Shown here: one piece after another, positions 2,222 to 37,527 of the stretch
How the letters are laid out: every line of letters starts with the position of its first letter
How positions within the stretch are numbered: position 1 is the stretch's first letter
Origin: a virus
Reading direction: 5' to 3' (one strand)
Virus record (IMG/VR): IMGVR_UViG_3300034760_000060
Coordinates: 1-64,000 of that record
Length of the DNA stretch: 64,000 nt
Position numbers and translations under genes: made by a program
Notes under the pieces: model-generated
Databases searched by the model: none
Told to the model about the DNA's origin: nothing
The model's input: only the letters and a program-made list of their open reading frames with translations

Positions 2222-3418
2222 TCATTCCTTGACGTTTCTGGCTCCGGGAATGTCCAGGGAATTTTTAGCCAGTGCGGCCTCCATCTTCTCCATTTCCCGA
2301 TCATCGTCGTCGCTGCTGATCCATTTGGCGTAGACCGTGAAGAACATGCGAAGACTATGGCCCAACTGCTTGGCCAAGTACCCCGGCTTGGCGCCGCTCA
2401 TGAGTCCGATTGTTGCAAAGGTGTGGCGCATGTTGTACGGGCGGCGATACCGGATGCCAAGCTGCTTCAAGGTGATCTCCCAAAAACTTCGAACGTCCGT
2501 AATTTTTGCGTACCCCCAAGGCTTGCTAGTTTTTGGGTCGTGGAAAACATGCCCGCCACCCTCCACGCGCGCGCCGACGAGCTGCGTGTACACCTTCTGC
2601 CGCTGCAGCGCCTCCATAGCCAGCTTCGTCAGCTTCACTACCCGCGCCTCATAAGTTTTCGTCGAGTCCGCTTCCTCATCGTACACATTCGCCCCGTCGA
2701 TCAGCATTTCCTTCTTCTGGAAATCGATATCCCCCCATTTCAGCGCGATACCTTCGGAGGTCCGCAGTCCGGAAAAGAACATCAGTTGCACGAAGTTTAA
2801 GATTTGCTCGTCTCGATGCGCCCGAAGGTGATCCAGAATTTGGTGCGCCTCCGCGAGGTCGAACGGGTCCGGGCCTGGTCGTTGGTAACCGGCGCGCGCT
2901 ACTTCTTCGCACGGGTTTTCGGTTATCAGCTTGTCACGCTTCGCGAATTCGAACACGCCCTTAATCAGCGACAGTTCGTTGTTCCGGCTTTTCCCGCTCT
3001 TCCAGGTGCCAGCCTTGAGCGCCTCTAGAATGTCCGAATAGCCTACCTCGGCGATCGGCTTATTCGTCAATTTCTTCTTCCAGAAATTTTCAAGGCGCCT
3101 GCGATACTGATCCTTCGTTGATGCCTTTATTTCATGCAGCCTAATCCATTTATCCATTACATCGAACAGCATCGGCACGCATTTGCCTGCTTCGTTCGCG
3201 CGCGGGGAATGCGGGAAATAGTCCTGATAGCTGAACGTGCCCTCTACAATTTTGCGCCTGATTTCCGCTGCGATCCTGGTCGCGTACTTTGCGTTCGCCG
3301 GCGTCGGCTGCATCGGCTCATCATTGAGATAAAGCGTTTCCTTGCACGAGCGCCCCCTGTACGTAAATCGCACGCGAATGCTGCTTTCCCGCAGTTCTAT
3401 GCCGCCTGTTCCACCCAT
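2222..3418 (-). CDS. int: Prophage tyrosine integrase
   Basis: Site-specific recombinase that integrates and, with an excisionase, excises the phage. The N-terminus (about 1-75, GIELRESSIRVRFTYRGR) matches the DUF3596 arm-binding domain, 80-165 is the core-binding SAM-like domain, and the catalytic domain follows. Visible catalytic residues: Arg219 (SGLRTSEG), Lys254, Arg331 in YNMRHTFA with Tyr in place of the first His, His354 (LGH) and the nucleophile Tyr363 (TVYAKW). The protein is full length at 398 residues. The gene is last in the leftward operon, overlaps the excisionase-like gene by 22 bp, and its 3' end points at the tRNA-Ser attachment site. Confidence 0.95.
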   Translation of the reverse strand: MGGTGGIELRESSIRVRFTYRGRSCKETLYLNDEPMQPTPANAKYATRIAAEIRRKIVEGTFSYQDYFPHSPRANEAGKCVPMLFDVMDKWIRLHEIKASTKDQYRRRLENFWKKKLTNKPIAEVGYSDILEALKAGTWKSGKSRNNELSLIKGVFEFAKRDKLITENPCEEVARAGYQRPGPDPFDLAEAHQILDHLRAHRDEQILNFVQLMFFSGLRTSEGIALKWGDIDFQKKEMLIDGANVYDEEADSTKTYEARVVKLTKLAMEALQRQKVYTQLVGARVEGGGHVFHDPKTSKPWGYAKITDVRSFWEITLKQLGIRYRRPYNMRHTFATIGLMSGAKPGYLAKQLGHSLRMFFTVYAKWISSDDDDREMEKMEAALAKNSLDIPGARNVKE

Positions 3419-20566: not shown

Positions 20567-20737
20567 ATGCATAGCTCAGAAAAGATGGAAGCGCTCACAG
20601 CAAGTGAGCGGATTTTGGTCGAGAACTATCGCCACATCAGGGCGGACAAGCGTGAGATGTTTATTGACATGTCACGAAGCTATCGCCGCAACTACCCCGT
20701 GGAGTCGCCCCGGCTACAGCTTGTTCCTTCGAAATAG
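20567..20737 (+). CDS. Small helical protein near repressor
   Basis: 56 residues from the ATG at 20567, which has GGAAG about 8 bp upstream. HSSEKMEALTASERILVENY then DKREMFIDMSRSYRR: two helices, charged, no known fold. It converges on the repressor gene and overlaps its 3' end by 24 bp. Small genes beside repressors may modulate it; nothing here proves that. Confidence 0.5.
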   Translation: MHSSEKMEALTASERILVENYRHIRADKREMFIDMSRSYRRNYPVESPRLQLVPSK

Positions 20738-21262
20738 AAGGCTTCCAATGTTTTGGGCGGCAGGAAGTAGGTTCGCTTGATCGATTAGGGTGGCACGGTC
20801 AGCGCCTTCTGATTCTCGGTATATCGCGATAAGAGTAGCTTCAGTCTCATCTAGGCGGTCAAGCCAAGTCAAAGCGTGCCTTGCGCCAATGTGCTGCTCA
20901 GCGTCGACTTCAGCTTCCGGACTTTTGATGGTCATGGTTAAGCGCGGAGGAGATGGCGCCACTTTCGCCGCCTCGTTTAAGCCTGAGGGAGCCAGTTCCA
21001 CTTTCGCCGCTTGTCCGCCCCTCCCAGCGAGATCAGCAAGCACGTCATCCGGCAAGCCCTTGCCTGTTATTTTGACAATTCCAACAATCTGCTGAAGGCT
21101 CGGCTCGTGCTTTTCGGTTTCCCAATGGGAAATGTTGGCTCTGCTGTTGCCACGCGACTCCCCTAACTCCAGCGCGAGCTTCGTACCCAGCTCGGCACCG
21201 GAGAGGTCGGCCTCCGTTCGGGCCTCCCTGATCCACTTCGCAATTTTTTCTTTTAGCTTCAT
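20714..21262 (-). CDS. CI-like repressor without peptidase domain
   Basis: 182 residues from the ATG at 21262. An XRE-type helix-turn-helix covers about residues 5-65 (KIAKWIREARTEADLSGAEL, then SRANISHWETEKHEPSLQQI). The C-terminal part (ARHALTWLDRLDETEATLIA and on) is helical and lacks the Ser/Lys LexA-type peptidase of lambda CI, so RecA-triggered self-cleavage is not expected. Divergent from the Cro-like gene across a perfect operator, which marks it as the lysogenic repressor. The ribosome site is weak, as often seen for repressors. Confidence 0.8.
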   Translation of the reverse strand: MKLKEKIAKWIREARTEADLSGAELGTKLALELGESRGNSRANISHWETEKHEPSLQQIVGIVKITGKGLPDDVLADLAGRGGQAAKVELAPSGLNEAAKVAPSPPRLTMTIKSPEAEVDAEQHIGARHALTWLDRLDETEATLIAIYRESEGADRATLIDQANLLPAAQNIGSLLFRRNKL

Positions 21263-21366: not shown

Positions 21367-21633
21367 ATGACCCCCGAAGAAGCCCTTGATAAAGCAGTTT
21401 CCTACGTTGGAACCGTGCAGAACATGGCAGATCACCTCGGTGTAACCAAGGGGGCCATCAGCCAGTGGAAGCAAGAAGGCCGCCGCATCCCTGCGGAGCA
21501 CTGCCCAGCAATCGAGCGGCTTACTGCCCGAGGCGTCCGCTGCGAGCAAATGCGCCCGGATGTCGACTGGGAGTATCTGCGCCTTGTCGTCGCCGCCAAG
21601 CCGCCTCGAAGTCGCGCAAGCCCACCACCCTGA
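21367..21633 (+). CDS. YdaS/Cro-like regulator
   Basis: 88 residues of the YdaS family: ALDKAVSYVGTVQNMADHLG then VTKGAISQWKQEGRRIPAEH (helix-turn-helix), followed by the family tail CPAIERLTARGVRCEQMRPD and VDWEYLR. In lambdoid prophages it takes the place of Cro, the first gene of the rightward operon. It lies directly behind the operator-controlled promoter; the Shine-Dalgarno site is poor. The C-terminus is a short Pro/Ser tail. Confidence 0.88.
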   Translation: MTPEEALDKAVSYVGTVQNMADHLGVTKGAISQWKQEGRRIPAEHCPAIERLTARGVRCEQMRPDVDWEYLRLVVAAKPPRSRASPPP

Positions 21634-24689: not shown

Positions 24690-24716
24690 AGTTTGAAACT
24701 TACCTATGGAGTAGGC

Positions 24717-25460
24717 ATGAACGAGATTGTACACCACAAGCATATTGACGTCGCCGGCGTCGCTATTGCGCAGGATCAGGCGGGGCGCTACTGCCTGAAC
24801 GATTTGCACAAGGCGGCGATGCTAGCTAAGAAGGCGACCGAATCACATCGACCCGGCAACTTCCTAAAAACGGCGGATGTTGTGAAGTTTGCTCAAGTTT
24901 TAAGCGATGCTACGAATGTAGCACCGGTCGAGACAATCAAGGGCGGCACACGTCAAGGTAGTTACGGCGTCGAATTGATCGTCATGCGTTACGCCGCTTG
25001 GATCGATCCCGCGTTCGAAGTCCAGGTGTACCAGACCTTCCAGGCCGCCGCGAATGGAACGCTGCAGAAGTTCATGGACGACCAGATCCGCGCGCAGTCC
25101 CGGCAAGCGGCCCGGCTGGAGGCGCCATATCTCACTGACGCCATCAAGCATCGCCGCAAGGTGCTGGGCAAGCCGACCGCGCACTACCACTTTTCCAATG
25201 AGTTCGACCTGATCAACCGGGTCGCGCTGGGCAAGTCGGCGAAGGCCTACCGCGAAGCGCACAGCATGACGTCAACAGAGGCAATCCGCGATCACCTGAC
25301 CCCGATGGAGATCCGTTGCATCGAGCACCTCCAGCGCGCCAACGCCACGATGATCGACCTGGGCTACGACTTCGAACAACGCAAGACCGAACTGCACAAG
25401 CTGTACGTGCTGCGCCACTCTGCCGGCCTGATGGCCGAAGTTGAAAGGATTGAATCATGA
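24717..25460 (+). CDS. KilA-N domain protein
   Basis: 247 residues from the ATG at 24717 with GGAG upstream. The KilA-N DNA-binding fold covers about 15-120: GRYCLNDLHKAA, SHRPGNFLKTADVVKFAQVL, GSYGVELIVMRYAAWIDPAF and FEVQVYQTFQAAANG. The C-terminal half is helical and basic. KilA-N proteins are common phage regulators or antirepressor-like factors of uncertain role. It begins a new block after the hairpin at 24668. Confidence 0.88.
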   Translation: MNEIVHHKHIDVAGVAIAQDQAGRYCLNDLHKAAMLAKKATESHRPGNFLKTADVVKFAQVLSDATNVAPVETIKGGTRQGSYGVELIVMRYAAWIDPAFEVQVYQTFQAAANGTLQKFMDDQIRAQSRQAARLEAPYLTDAIKHRRKVLGKPTAHYHFSNEFDLINRVALGKSAKAYREAHSMTSTEAIRDHLTPMEIRCIEHLQRANATMIDLGYDFEQRKTELHKLYVLRHSAGLMAEVERIES

Positions 25461-27187: not shown

Positions 27188-27270
27188 AAGCAATCGACCT
27201 TTTCGCCGGGGCTGGCGGTTTCAGTACCGACCCGCGCCAGCTCGTGCTGCCTGATGAGGTGCTGCCGTGA
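27184..27270 (+). pseudogene. Remnant of a cytosine methyltransferase
   Basis: 28 codons: KAIDLFAGAGGFST is exactly the N-terminal SAM-binding motif I of C5-cytosine methyltransferases, followed by 13 unrelated or C-terminal residues and a stop. The body, including the PC catalytic motif, is missing, so a deletion has joined start and end. It still has coupled ATGA/GTGA junctions to both neighbours, so it is probably translated as a dead peptide that preserves coupling. Confidence 0.7.
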
Positions 27271-28349
27271 CCGCCTACTACAACGAAATCGACCCGTACG
27301 CCGCCCAATGGCTGCGCAACCTGATCACCGCCGGGCACATCGCTGACGGCGTGGTCGACACCAGGAGCATTGAAGATGTACAGCCCGACGACCTGCGAGA
27401 GTTCACCCAGTGCCATTTCTTTGCCGGCGTCGGCGTTTGGTCGCATGCCCTCCGCGCCACGGGGTGGGGTGATGATCGACCTGTTTGGACCGGTTCCTGT
27501 CCTTGCCAACCTTTCAGCCAGGCAGGCGAAGGCGCTGGGTTTGCTGACGAGCGGCACCTGTGGCCTGCCTTCCACCACCTCACCAAAGAGCTGCGCCCTT
27601 CAGCGGTCCTTGGAGAGCAGGTTGCGAGCAGCCACGTCGACGCTTGGATCGACCTTGTACACGCTGACCTGGAAGGCATGGGTTACACCTTCGGGGCAAT
27701 CCCGTTCCCGTCTGCGGGCATCGGTGCGCCGCACATCCGAGACCGGCTGTACTGGGCGGGCACCATGGCCGACGCCGTCGAAGGCAAACGGGGACGGCGG
27801 GCAAACAATGGGGCATTGCTCGGCGACCGGACGGCGACCGGACGGGACCAAGTCGCAGGTGACGTTGAACGGGGTGGCAGCGCTGGCGGGCTGGCCTACG
27901 CCGGGGGCGGCGTTAGTGGATCACAAGCCACAACCACCGATCATTGGGAGCCGAAAGCCAACGGACCCGCAGATCGGGCTGGCGGACGTAGCGTTCTACC
28001 TGGCCGGGTGGCCGACGCCGAGTGCGAGCGACGGGAACGGGGGCAAGGGTTTCCGGCCAGGGGTATCGATGACTGGGCGCATGCCGGACGGCTCGAAGAT
28101 AACGATGGACCTGTCGGCCGCGACGAAACTGGCGTTCTACGAACTGAGCGGGCCGGTCCGACTAACGGCCTCTGGCGAGATGCTGACTGGCTCGCATGCA
28201 CAGATGGAAAGTGGCGGCCAGTTGAACCCGGCACATTCCCGCTGGCTCATGGGGCTGCCAGCCGCGTGGGACGACTGCGCGCCTACGGAAACGCTATCAA
28301 TGCTGAAGCGGCTCGCGTCTGGATCGAAGCCGTGATGGAGGGCGTATGA
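27267..28349 (+). CDS. C5-cytosine DNA methyltransferase
   Basis: 360 residues, GTG start coupled to the remnant before it, GAGG upstream. Motifs: [12 protein letters not shown] (51-62, motif I), [14 protein letters not shown] with catalytic Cys80 (motif IV), VLGEQVAS (114-121, motif VI in place of ENV), [12 protein letters not shown] (154-165, motif VIII) and [13 protein letters not shown] near the end (motif X). A segment that usually follows motif I ([18 protein letters not shown]) precedes it, as in a known phage subgroup. It would methylate cytosine in phage DNA, probably against restriction. A second frame inside it is also protein-like. Confidence 0.9.
27472..28335 (+). CDS. Protein overprinted inside the methyltransferase gene
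   Basis: 287 residues in the +1 frame relative to the methyltransferase, fully nested in it. Start [20 protein letters not shown] after a G-rich site; then [30 protein letters not shown], two WPTPS motifs (repeat-like), and the ending [25 protein letters not shown] know this text as a recurring phage protein often annotated as methyltransferase-associated. Whether it is a separate product or an ancient frame partner cannot be decided here. Confidence 0.6.
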
Positions 28350-30631: not shown

Positions 30632-31171
30632 ATGATGCGCCGCGCACCGATGAAACAAGGGGTAGGCCTGAAGCGCACGGCGTTCAAGCAGAAGGCGCCG
30701 TCGACCAGCACCGGGACCCTGCGCGTCGCCGCGGCGGAGCGCAAGGCCCCGGCCAGAAAAGCGGCGATGAAGTCGAAGCAGCGCGCCGTGAGCGCCGACG
30801 AAAAGCTGATGTGGGATCGGCTAGCCCAGCTGGGCTGCGTGGCATGCATGAAGGACGGGCACTACAACCCGCACGTCAGCATCCATCACGTCGACGGCCG
30901 GACGAAGCCGGGATGCCACAAGCTTGTGCTCCCGCTGTGCGGACCGCACCACCAGGACGACGGCTCGGGCGCGATCGCCGTGCACCCGTGGAAAGCCAGG
31001 TTCGAGGCGCGCTACGGCAGCCAGGTCGAATTGATGGCGCTGTGCCAGCACCTTTTATCAAGCAAGAAAAGCGAGTCCGCATCGGTTGCAGCCGGCACGG
31101 ACTCTGATCAAACAATACCTAGGGGCACTATCTTGACTAAAACGAATGTTAGCACGTGGGTGGAATCATGA
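30632..31171 (+). CDS. Ref-like RecA-dependent nuclease
   Basis: 179 residues. A basic, disordered N-terminus (about 1-55) is followed by a Ref-type HNH variant: LGCVACMKDG (68-77), SIHHVDGRTKPGCHKL (83-98), LPLCGPHHQDDG (100-111) and HPWKARFEARYG (118-129). Phage P1 Ref cuts DNA at RecA-bound displacement loops and stimulates recombination. Here it adjoins methyltransferase genes; the C-terminal 40 residues are Ser/Thr-rich and extra. Confidence 0.85.
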   Translation: MMRRAPMKQGVGLKRTAFKQKAPSTSTGTLRVAAAERKAPARKAAMKSKQRAVSADEKLMWDRLAQLGCVACMKDGHYNPHVSIHHVDGRTKPGCHKLVLPLCGPHHQDDGSGAIAVHPWKARFEARYGSQVELMALCQHLLSSKKSESASVAAGTDSDQTIPRGTILTKTNVSTWVES

Positions 31172-32835
31172 AGCCCTACACCCTCATTCACGGCGACTGC
31201 ATCACCGAGATGGCCAAGCTGCCGGAGAACAGCGTCGACGCGATCGTCTGCGATCCGCCGTACGGCCTCGAATTTATGGGCAAGGAGTGGGACGGCGCCG
31301 ACGGGTTCCGCCGATCGCTGAACGCTGCCGATGCTGGCCGCGACAACACGTTCGGCCGCATGTCGAAGAAGGCGCCGGAATATCGTGCTGGTCGGCTGTT
31401 CCAAGAGTGGTGCGAGGCATGGGCGACCGAAGCCCTGCGCGTGCTCAAGCCGGGCGGCCATCTGCTGGCCTTCAGTGGAACGCGCACGTCGCATCGCATG
31501 GTGTGCGCGATCGAGGACGCAGGGTTCGAGATCAGGGACAGCATCCCCTGGATTTACGGGTCGGGCTTTCCGAAAAGTATGAACGTGAGCAAGGCGATCG
31601 ACAAGGCGCGTGACGACAGCACTGAAGGGAGGGCTGTAGGCGCGTGGCTTAAGGATCAGCGCGAAGGGCGCGGGCTCAAGCAAAAAGATGTTGCTGCACT
31701 GTGGCCTTCGGTTACTGGCGGGCTTACCGGCTGCGTTGCGAACTGGGAAACGTTGGGCAAGGTGCCGAAATGGGACCAATGGCTACAGCTCAAGGCCTTT
31801 ATCGGTTTTGGCGACGAAATGGACGCCGAAGTGTGGCGGCTCAACGGCCGCAAAGGCACGCCAGGAAACGAGCGCGAAATTCTGAGCGAGCGGCCAGCGT
31901 CCGGGATCGGGCACAACGGTGTCGCTTTCGGCGGGCATGCCGACGGTGCCACACAGAAGTTTGACGCGGGGGCGGTTACCGACGCCGCCCGCCAATGGGA
32001 AGGCTGGGGCACCGCCCTCAAGCCGGCGCACGAGCCGTGCTGCATGGCGCGCAAGCCGCTGGCTAAGGGCGCGACCGTGGCGGCCAATGTGCTGGCGCAC
32101 GGCACCGGCGCGATCAATATCGATGCGTGCCGGGTGCCTGGAAACGAGAGCTCGGCGCGCGATGGCGAGGGCAGCGTAGAGCGCCGGTACAGCGTCGGCG
32201 GCGATGCTAGGTTCGCCATGCTGCCAGGCCCGCGTGGGGGTGACGCCGCTGGGCGGTGGCCCGCCAACATCATCCACGACGGCAGCGCCGAGGTGGTGGC
32301 GCTATTTCCTGAATCGACAAGCGGATCGCGCGTGGCTGGCGTGCGCAAGGGCATCGGGTTTGGCAGCAACGCCAAAGGCGACGGCGGCCCGGCGATTGAG
32401 GCGAGCGCCGGCAGCGCCGCCCGCTTCTTCTACTGCGCTAAGGCCAGCCGCGCCGACCGCAATGCCGGGCTGCCAAGCGGCGCCGCGCCGGCTGTGGCCA
32501 CCGAAGCGACCATGCGCGAGCGCGAGAACGCTGACTGGCCTGAACGCAACGGGAACCATCACCCGACCGTGAAACCGACCGACCTCATGGCCTACCTGGT
32601 GCGCCTGGTCACGCCGCCGGGCGGCCTGGTGCTGGATCCGTTCATGGGCAGCGGAAGCACGGGCAAGGCGTGCATGCGTGAGGGATTCCGGTTCGTCGGC
32701 ATCGACATGACGGCGGAATACCTGCCGATCGCCAGGGCGCGCATCGAGCACGAGCTCGCAAAGGCGACCGCGGCAGCTGAGTTGGCTGCCACCCCAGCCC
32801 CACAGTTGGATATGTTTGCAGCGGAGGTCGCATAA
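31168..32835 (+). CDS. DNA N4/N6 methyltransferase with inserted helix-turn-helix
   Basis: 555 residues from the ATG at 31168 (ATGA, GGTGGA upstream). Amino-methyltransferase of the beta order: CDPPYG (catalytic, 28-33) first, DPFMGSGSTG (SAM site, 490-499) last, as in MboII/RsrI-type enzymes. Residues about 155-215 insert an XRE-like helix-turn-helix (WLKDQREGRGLKQKDVAALW ... GCVANWETLGKVP), and 245-460 is a long target-recognition region with TVKP near 467. Length is nearly twice that of simple family members. It probably methylates phage DNA, and the insert may give target or self-regulatory binding. Confidence 0.88.
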   Translation: MKPYTLIHGDCITEMAKLPENSVDAIVCDPPYGLEFMGKEWDGADGFRRSLNAADAGRDNTFGRMSKKAPEYRAGRLFQEWCEAWATEALRVLKPGGHLLAFSGTRTSHRMVCAIEDAGFEIRDSIPWIYGSGFPKSMNVSKAIDKARDDSTEGRAVGAWLKDQREGRGLKQKDVAALWPSVTGGLTGCVANWETLGKVPKWDQWLQLKAFIGFGDEMDAEVWRLNGRKGTPGNEREILSERPASGIGHNGVAFGGHADGATQKFDAGAVTDAARQWEGWGTALKPAHEPCCMARKPLAKGATVAANVLAHGTGAINIDACRVPGNESSARDGEGSVERRYSVGGDARFAMLPGPRGGDAAGRWPANIIHDGSAEVVALFPESTSGSRVAGVRKGIGFGSNAKGDGGPAIEASAGSAARFFYCAKASRADRNAGLPSGAAPAVATEATMRERENADWPERNGNHHPTVKPTDLMAYLVRLVTPPGGLVLDPFMGSGSTGKACMREGFRFVGIDMTAEYLPIARARIEHELAKATAAAELAATPAPQLDMFAAEVA

Positions 32836-35468: not shown

Positions 35469-35893
35469 GCCGCCCTAAGCCCAAGCGCACGAAGGCCTAC
35501 CATCCCAAGCCATGCGTGAAGCCGCTCGGGATGCGCCAAGCCTTGATGATGGAAATGCCGGGCTATGTTGCCTCCTTGGCGCTCGGCCTGCCGCACTTCT
35601 GCGAGCGGCACGTCTACGACCTGTTGAGCAACGCCGACTTGACGCGCCGGATCGCCCCGGACGGACATCCCATCCTGCCGATCGCAAAGGCCATGGTTCT
35701 GGCCATAGCCGAGATCCAGCACCGCGCGCAGGAGACGGAAAAAACCGAATGCACTGCGGGCGAATTGGCCGTGCTGCGTGAAGGCGTCGGTCGGACTATG
35801 GACTACCTACGGACGGTGCCGAACGTCGAGATATCGCGCGCTTCGGCAGCCGCCCTGGCGGAGTTCGACCGACTGGGGTGCTTGCGAGTATGA
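35465..35893 (+). CDS. Hypothetical phage protein before Q-like gene
   Basis: 142 residues. Basic start (RPKPKRTKAYHPKPCVKPLG), a helical body (LALGLPHFCERHVYDLLSNA, PIAKAMVLAIAEIQHRAQE) and a conserved-looking end. Position between rusA and a Q-like gene matches NinX/antitermination-region proteins of other phages, but I recognise no domain. Confidence 0.6.
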   Translation: MSRPKPKRTKAYHPKPCVKPLGMRQALMMEMPGYVASLALGLPHFCERHVYDLLSNADLTRRIAPDGHPILPIAKAMVLAIAEIQHRAQETEKTECTAGELAVLREGVGRTMDYLRTVPNVEISRASAAALAEFDRLGCLRV

Positions 35894-35961
35894 ATGGGCG
35901 AGTTCGTCAAGCGATTTGGGCATTGCAGCGAAGAAAAATAGTTCCCATTGGACTCTTGTAA
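35890..35961 (+). CDS. Tiny 23-residue coupled reading frame
   Basis: NGRVRQAIWALQRRKIVPIG, strongly basic. The ATG overlaps the previous stop. It fills part of a 115-bp gap before the Q-like gene. Low confidence: coupling and basic composition only. Confidence 0.35.
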   Translation: MNGRVRQAIWALQRRKIVPIGLL

Positions 35962-36008
35962 ACTTGCAGCAATATGGTAAGGTGGGAAGGTCTTCTTGTG
36001 GGGAAACT

Positions 36009-36566
36009 ATGGGATTCGCTGAAAAACACCTTCAATCGCTCGGCTCATCCAATCTCATGGATGACTGCTTCCATCATCAAACCGATGCGCTGCAAGCGGC
36101 TGCGCGTGCCGACAAGTCTGCGCGCAACATCGGGTCGCTGCTTTCGCGCGTCAAGTACGCAGACGGGACGCTCGGCAAGCAGTTCGAGGGCAATGCCCAG
36201 AACTTGGCCGCCCTGTTGCGCGAATGGCTCGCCATCGTGACGGAGAAGGGCACCGCGCGCCGCTGGGTCAAGCCCGAGGACATTGCAATCGCCCCGATCA
36301 CGTTTCGCCGCGTGGCCAACGCCTCCCTGGCTCACTTCTTGGACGGCAAATGCGTGCAGTGCCACGGCACCGGCGTCGCCGAGAGCAAGCGCGCGTGCAT
36401 TCCTTGCAAGGGCTCAGGGCAGATCGAATTGACCGGCCTGAGCGGCTACGAGGCAAAGCTGGTGCTCGACATGGTGTCTGAGCTGGGCGCCATCGAATCG
36501 ACGCACGCAGCCATCGCAAGCGCACTGTTGCGTAAGCGCGACCTGACGGCGGAAGAAATCGCATGA
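36009..36566 (+). CDS. Q-like antiterminator with zinc finger
   Basis: 185 residues from the ATG at 36009 (GGGGA upstream). Helical N-terminal part, RWVKPEDIAIAPITFRRVAN in the middle, and a DnaJ-like zinc finger with Cys115, Cys118, Cys130, Cys133 (CVQCHGTG and CIPCKGSG), as in Q proteins of the lambdoid antiterminator families. Strong context: it is the last early gene, directly followed by a promoter, a leader and a terminator in the lambda pR'-tR' arrangement. The name rests on motif and position, not on overall similarity that I can measure. Confidence 0.6.
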   Translation: MGFAEKHLQSLGSSNLMDDCFHHQTDALQAAARADKSARNIGSLLSRVKYADGTLGKQFEGNAQNLAALLREWLAIVTEKGTARRWVKPEDIAIAPITFRRVANASLAHFLDGKCVQCHGTGVAESKRACIPCKGSGQIELTGLSGYEAKLVLDMVSELGAIESTHAAIASALLRKRDLTAEEIA

Positions 36567-36585
36567 ACTGTGTATACGAACAGTA
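36566..36585. promoter_or_regulatory. LexA (SOS) box
   Basis: CTGT-N8-ACAG at 36568-36583 in the 20-mer AACTGTGTATACGAACAGTA, which matches the LexA consensus used in gamma- and betaproteobacteria at both half-sites including the outer A/T. It starts at the stop codon of the Q-like gene and would cover the -35 region of the promoter just downstream. Confidence 0.75.
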
Positions 36586-36598
36586 TTTCGTGTAGAAT
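36570..36598 (+). promoter_or_regulatory. Late promoter (pR'-like)
   Basis: -10 box TAGAAT (36593-36598), preceded 17 bp upstream by a poor -35 element inside the LexA box. Weak -35 elements are usual at Q-dependent promoters. Start would be near 36605, giving a leader of about 185 nt. Confidence 0.5.
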
Positions 36599-36604
36599 TG
36601 AAGT

Positions 36605-36790
36605 TCTCGACGTAACGTAAATTTCTCTCAGGCTTGTGCCAGACGCGAAAGCGACAACGACCCCTGAGACACATATAGTGCAAGCCTACCAACGGTTTCG
36701 CTCGCACTGAAATTTACGAGTTGCCGTCGCACGTAGTACCCCGCAGATAGCGGGGACGAACCCGGAAGCCACCCTTGAGGTGGCTTTTTG
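36605..36790 (+). ncRNA. Structured late leader RNA
   Basis: Leader between promoter and terminator with several pairings: CGTAAATTTC (36616-36625) with GAAATTTACG (36709-36718); TCTCAGG (36626-36632) with CCTGAGA (36663-36669) or, mutually exclusive, AGGCTTG (36630-36636) with CAAGCCT (36681-36687); a GAAA tetraloop hairpin (36644-36653); CCCCGC/GCGGGG (36739-36755); and the terminator. Length and place match the lambda pR' leader transcript; the amount of structure is larger than expected. Confidence 0.55.
36766..36790 (+). terminator. Leader terminator (tR'-like)
   Basis: AGCCACC (36767-36773), loop CTTGA, GGTGGCT (36779-36785), then TTTTT. It stands 18 bp before the next gene, so the late operon needs readthrough, the expected target of the Q-like protein. 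Confidence 0.85.
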
Positions 36791-37344: not shown

Positions 37345-37432
37345 GGTAGCATGGCTGAGAGGCCGAAAGCAACGGCTTGCTAAGCCGCACGGTCGAAAGG
37401 CCGCCCAGGTTCGAATCCTGGTGCTACCGCCA
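37345..37432 (+). tRNA. Phage tRNA-Ser(GCT)
   Basis: Acceptor GGTAGCA pairs with TGCTACC, anticodon loop TTGCTAA gives GCT (reads AGC/AGU), long variable arm, T-arm CCAGGTTCGAATCCTGG, and CCA encoded (37430-37432). One A-C mismatch at the base of the anticodon stem. Located in the late operon. Confidence 0.92.
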
Positions 37433-37438
37433 GTTCAA

Positions 37439-37527
37439 GGAAGATTGGCCGAGTGGTCGAAGGCACTGGTCTTGAAAACCAGCAGGTGTAACAGCCTCGG
37501 GAGTTCGAATCTACCCATCTTCCGCCA
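37439..37527 (+). tRNA. Phage tRNA-Ser(TGA)
   Basis: Acceptor GGAAGAT pairs with ATCTTCC, anticodon loop CTTGAAA gives TGA (reads UCA), long variable arm, CCA encoded (37525-37527). The T stem GGGAG/CTACC contains one G-A mismatch where CTCCC would pair fully. Six bases separate it from the other serine tRNA, so both come from one precursor. Confidence 0.88.

Follow-up and report, generated by a model that had tools for sequence, protein, structure and literature searches.

In textbook temperate phages, DNA damage is sensed at immunity, after which Q alone leads to the late step. Late control in phage λ runs in the order Q gene, promoter pR', terminated leader (tR') and late operon, and in λ this promoter is active constitutively, outside LexA control. 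The stretch of prophage DNA analysed here, 64 kb in length and referred to as the window, raises the question of what a LexA site might be doing at a promoter of this kind. A preliminary description of the window had placed a near-ideal LexA site over the −35 region of the promoter that follows a Q-like gene, had read the CI-like repressor as lacking a self-cleaving domain, and had proposed that the SOS response gates lysis at the late step and not at immunity. Three issues have to be dealt with: (i) whether the site is a LexA operator of the host, (ii) what it would control, and (iii) whether it stands in for cleavage of the repressor.

The prophage and its late region

The window covers most of one prophage, and the parent IMG/VR record (G000) is 72,109 bp long. 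A tRNA-Ser(GGA) gene (2080-2170) adjoins the prophage, with the integrase gene at 2222-3418. The flanking acetyl-CoA synthetase gene (acs) is 98% identical to its Massilia aquatica counterpart, suggesting a Massilia-like host within the Oxalobacteraceae. The early region includes DNA methyltransferases of the C5-cytosine and N6/N4 types, at 27267-28349 and 31156-32835, and a KilA-N protein at 24693-25460. The late genes, identified by PHROGs matches, occupy 40019-63836 on the plus strand and run from terminase and portal through head morphogenesis to the tail and onward; a GH19-type endolysin follows them past the end of the window (L001:4145-4663). Two tRNA-Ser genes, GCT (37345-37432) and TGA (37439-37527), come next after the leader, within the late region, and a tRNA-Ser(GCT)-like sequence is also present in the corresponding late region of L002, the locus of phage G001, whose Q-like protein is a 96% relative of that in the window.

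The Q-like gene (36009-36566, plus strand) encodes a putative late antiterminator of 185 aa with a C-x2-C ... C-x2-C zinc motif. The longer ORF at 35778-36566 is most likely over-called, and the start at 36009 is favoured because relatives align from that Met. By sequence and by modelled fold the assignment to Q is weak, and its main support comes from the position of the gene and the anatomy of the leader that follows it. The window protein has no Pfam or PHROGs match at 1e-3; some members of its family match phrog_127, ‘anti-termination protein Q-like’ (E 0.00098 in the best case, 0.063 for the window member), and the library matches of the family are weak and run via the zinc motif. AlphaFold models have a pLDDT of 50 from the single sequence and of 78 when guided by an alignment of 18 relatives. 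Chains of λ Q take ranks 1-3 and 10 among the PDB matches to the model, with non-significant E values of 0.06-0.78 overall and 0.06-0.28 for the top hits, and a chain of an AlpA-loading complex appears at rank 21. No sequence match to the family was found among 50,697 phage records, and a peptide-pattern search of genome contigs returned zero relatives. Within the host family, 69 of 393 genomes carry relatives of the Q-like protein; outside it, 399 genomes of the order yielded two weak partial matches.

Directly 3' of the Q-like gene comes ACTGTGTATACGAACAGTATTTCGTGTAGAAT, comprising the box and then the −10, followed by a leader of ∼185 nt and a terminator. The predicted −10 element, TAGAAT (36593-36598, plus strand), is kept in L002. 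The best −35 at a spacing of 16 nt is TGTATA, a 3/6 match that lies within the box, and transcription is predicted to start near 36605. The structured late leader RNA occupies 36605-36763 on the plus strand and ends, as the preliminary description had stated, in an intrinsic terminator with a 10-bp stem and T5 (about 36764-36790, plus strand). The λ-type layout is thus present, with a promoter after the Q-like gene, a leader with a terminal terminator, and the late operon downstream, an order shared with λ. Unlike in λ, the −35 of this late promoter coincides with a predicted LexA operator.

The operator and its conservation

The core box CTGTGTATACGAACAG at 36568-36583 is the sole perfect CTGT-N8-ACAG within the window. 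On its own the bare pattern is weak evidence, because with eight fixed bases a chance match is due in every 64 kb or so, and sites with at most one mismatch show no enrichment in the window (15 observed, 16.2 expected). The site was also compared with the operators of the host family by means of a 20-position scoring matrix derived from 30 distinct lexA-promoter operators. The phage operator, ACTGTGTATACGAACAGTA (36567-36585, plus strand, overlapping the −35), reaches 21.4 bits on this matrix, which favours perfect sites because its training set held perfect half-sites only; true operators span 13.8-28.8 bits. The next best site within the window scores 5.0 bits, and the top score in a set of 40 random 64-kb sequences is 17.2 bits. 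The lexA promoters of M. aquatica and its near relatives carry CTGTGTATATGGACAG and CTGTATTTTTGTACAGTATTTCG (...ACAGTATTTCG), the phage counterpart being CTGTGTATACGAACAGTATTTCG, so that the phage operator is nearly identical to those of host lexA. No match to a LexA DNA-binding domain was found in record G000 itself. In the G001 record, scanned whole, the late box is the single site above 15 bits, and in nearly all of the other scanned prophage stretches it is again alone above that score.

In phage G001 the box, the −10, the leader and the terminator are all kept. The box is found in 21 related late promoters, 13 of them from one cluster of related prophages; 17 boxes have perfect half-sites and four have one half-site mismatch. 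These comprise 11 distinct 16-mers, the distance from box to −10 is 9-12 nt, and the weakest boxes, those of L107 and L150, score ∼12 bits. Across 10 representative boxes, C1-T2-G3 and C14-A15-G16 are invariant and the centre is variable, a pattern expected for LexA. It is on the host-matrix score and the conservation in relatives, not on the bare pattern, that a chance match is rejected. By sequence, the box is confirmed as a genuine LexA operator of the host family, at which LexA would bind and repress, and its location over the −35 is as the preliminary description had it.

In a tree of the Q proteins, all boxes that adjoin Q fall within one clade of 21 proteins (support 98/97), although one member of this clade, L170, has no box. 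A profile built from the late leader of the relatives also located late promoters that intervening genes separate from Q; the window's own leader does not match this profile. In L155, L156 and L110 the box lies 470-880 nt from Q, in its usual position relative to the leader, and scores 23.3, 17.4 and 15.7 bits, respectively. Loss of the box in L155 and L156, which the tree labels had suggested, is ruled out by its presence farther downstream, and where an insertion separates Q from the box, the place of the box before the leader is retained. In L110 the box accompanies a Q from outside the clade, so it appears that Q and promoter can be reshuffled. The boxless relatives L113, L117, L121, L139 and L240 have the same leader behind a TTGACA, TTGATA or TTGACT −35, so a −35 region would have turned into a LexA operator in one line, or the reverse.

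Control of the late promoter

It is likely that a functional host LexA operator has been fused to the −35 of a Q-dependent late promoter, and that the late genes are thereby under a double lock, which would open only when Q is present and LexA has been cleaved. The operator match, its place and conservation, the leader, the terminator and the repressor types are computed features, and from these LexA binding, repression, the action of Q and the dependence of the late genes on SOS are inferred. In a lysogen, LexA would occlude the −35 and hold the late promoter silent; upon SOS, LexA would be cleaved and the promoter would fire. Without Q, the transcript would stop at the leader terminator. Q would be made from the CI-controlled early operon once CI is gone, and the Q-modified polymerase would read through the leader terminator into the late genes. 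Because Q would be needed for readthrough and lies in the CI-controlled early region, LexA cleavage alone would yield the terminated leader only. The net logic would be that of an AND gate with Q and SOS as its inputs.

A more far-reaching version, possible but doubtful, is that the lytic cycle depends on damage to the host's DNA in infection as well, and that virion production and lysis are licensed only by SOS. In a new, undamaged host, LexA would repress the incoming late promoter whatever Q does, and the infection would then default to lysogeny or to abortive early expression. Exceptions would arise if phage copies titrate LexA or if the infection itself triggers SOS.

The leader has properties that could make it the product in its own right. 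It is strongly structured (−68.5 kcal/mol, z −4.5 against shuffles) and conserved, five compensatory pairs being found in leader and terminator against the 96% relative L002, two of the five in the terminator. An Rfam search of the leader gave no family above its gathering score; the weak matches to P9 and asX2 lie below theirs, and a known RNA family is rejected on these grounds. The leader motif TAGTGCAAGCCTACC matched 20 viral contigs, the matches outside the G001 phage being short, and the match in L014 proved on inspection to be an unrelated repeat. Since the leader ends in a terminator, an SOS-induced small RNA of ∼185 nt would be the sole product without Q, and the box could be there for this RNA more than for the late genes. 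Such a role is nevertheless improbable: the box keeps a constant place before quite different leaders, the leader of the relatives also stands behind boxless promoters, the order of Q, promoter and late genes is retained, and Q-type late promoters, as with λ pR', generally produce a terminated leader.

The double lock also has to be set against the state of the repressor. The CI-like repressor (20714-21262, minus strand) is a protein of 182 aa with an HTH and a short helical C-terminus, and a Cro of the YdaS/P22 Cro-like type (21367-21633, plus strand; PF15943 and PF14549 in Pfam) is divergent from it. Domain searches found no peptidase match in CI, which thus lacks the S24 domain of a λ-type RecA-cleavable repressor; this bears out what the preliminary description had read from the DNA. 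A peptidase-type repressor elsewhere in the prophage was also looked for, and the 72-kb record yielded no Peptidase_S24 even with the threshold relaxed to E ≤ 1. The closest relative, G001, has a CI that is 71% identical to that of the window, likewise with no S24 peptidase found in the phage, and G269 has another short CI without S24, beside cro. A repressor from another genome of the host family is 46% identical to the N-terminal part of the window CI, but its C-terminal part is an S24 domain that carries a GDSM motif, suggesting that the window CI is a version whose C-terminus has been lost or exchanged.

Other carriers of the box are equipped differently. In at least 15 box-carrying prophages (G097, G182, G054, G150, G336, G078, G281, G322, G240, G258, G317, G312, G327, G287 and G253) the contig that carries Q also has an S24 repressor 5-17 kb upstream of it, and in G360 it lies ∼1 kb from Q. 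A cro homologue adjoins the S24 repressor in seven checked box-carrying cases, and no S24 repressor was found within 20-30 kb upstream in G363 and G308. The short CIs of the window, G001 and G269, where the late box is also the strongest LexA site in each sequence, would suit the idea that SOS reaches the phage through LexA at the late promoter in place of CI cleavage. There is only a slim chance that this is so, given the box carriers that retain an S24 CI; moreover, LexA release without Q should end at the leader terminator, and a second LexA-box gene in the prophage could give a separate route against CI. The late box appears to be an added lock, then, and not a substitute for repressor cleavage, since in the carriers with S24 repressors both controls coexist. 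With a RecA-cleavable CI in most box-carrying relatives, SOS would act on immunity as well as at the late step. The earlier proposal of gating at the late step is supported only in part.

Many genomes of the host family have a Q-like gene in the vicinity of an S24 repressor that is divergent from it (L137, L140-L147, L149, L151 and L152). In L145 (2695-7999) genes for tail tube, chaperone and tape measure come immediately after the Q-like gene, and a cluster of this type resembles a domesticated, tailocin-like headless tail under SOS control. L165, from G360, likewise has a cluster of S24 repressor, Q and tail genes, the tail genes coming right after Q, with a late-promoter LexA box of 25.6 bits.

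The scan of the prophage for LexA sites that the preliminary description had proposed gave one strong site besides the late box. This second operator, TACTGTACGCATGTACAGTA (G000 67984-68003, 17.0 bits), lies just past the window and covers the ATG from which an ORF of ∼115 aa begins (G000 67992-68345; box and ORF together G000 67984-68345, L001:7985-8345); the ORF has no Pfam or PHROGs match. Relatives of the ORF occur in 22 of 245 Oxalobacteraceae genomes, and in most of these relatives, too, a LexA-like box covers the start codon at the corresponding place. Its product is a candidate SOS-controlled antirepressor against CI. In the window lineage, which has no cleavable CI, the late operator is, going by predicted sites, one of just two strong SOS inputs visible in the prophage.

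Binding of the palindrome by Q or another regulator, or a chance match, is very improbable: about one bare match is indeed expected per 64 kb and a binding site for Q would be at home on a late promoter, but the near identity with host lexA operators and the host-matrix score, the fixed CTGT/ACAG ends around differing centres, and the normal −35 without a box in relatives with similar Q proteins all speak against it.

Parallels and significance

The wiring had at first seemed unfamiliar. Searches of the open-access literature found no description of LexA control over the late promoter of a Q-type phage; late genes that SOS gates directly, through LexA together with an early phage product, are, however, already known from a tectivirus. 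The late promoter P3 of the Bacillus thuringiensis tectivirus GIL01 is repressed by LexA-gp7, and the phage protein gp6 is also required (PMC6182141). As at P3, the arrangement described here would place host LexA on a promoter for late structural and lysis genes, with an early phage product needed too (PMC6182141). GIL01 differs in having no dedicated repressor, a Gram-positive host, tandem LexA boxes and an activator of initiation (PMC6182141), whereas the present phage is tailed and of lambdoid type, with CI and Cro, a Q-like protein and one box over the −35.

In the Gifsy prophages, LexA-controlled antirepressors act on non-cleavable repressors (PMC3121763). The window prophage resembles them in combining a non-cleavable repressor with a LexA operator outside the immunity region (PMC3121763). 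The Gifsy operator drives an antirepressor, whereas here the operator is on the late promoter; the ORF at G000 67984 is the candidate antirepressor. Colicin operons offer a further parallel, in that a lethal product is under the direct control of LexA and subject to a second condition as well, but these are plasmid bacteriocin genes without Q-type antitermination (PMC6182141).

This prophage group of soil and water bacteria seems to have swapped the −35 of its late promoter for the SOS operator of the host. The operator has been retained while Q diverged to ∼50% identity and some lines lost the cleavable repressor. Box-plus and box-minus relatives that share the same leader provide a clean comparison for why a phage checks SOS twice.
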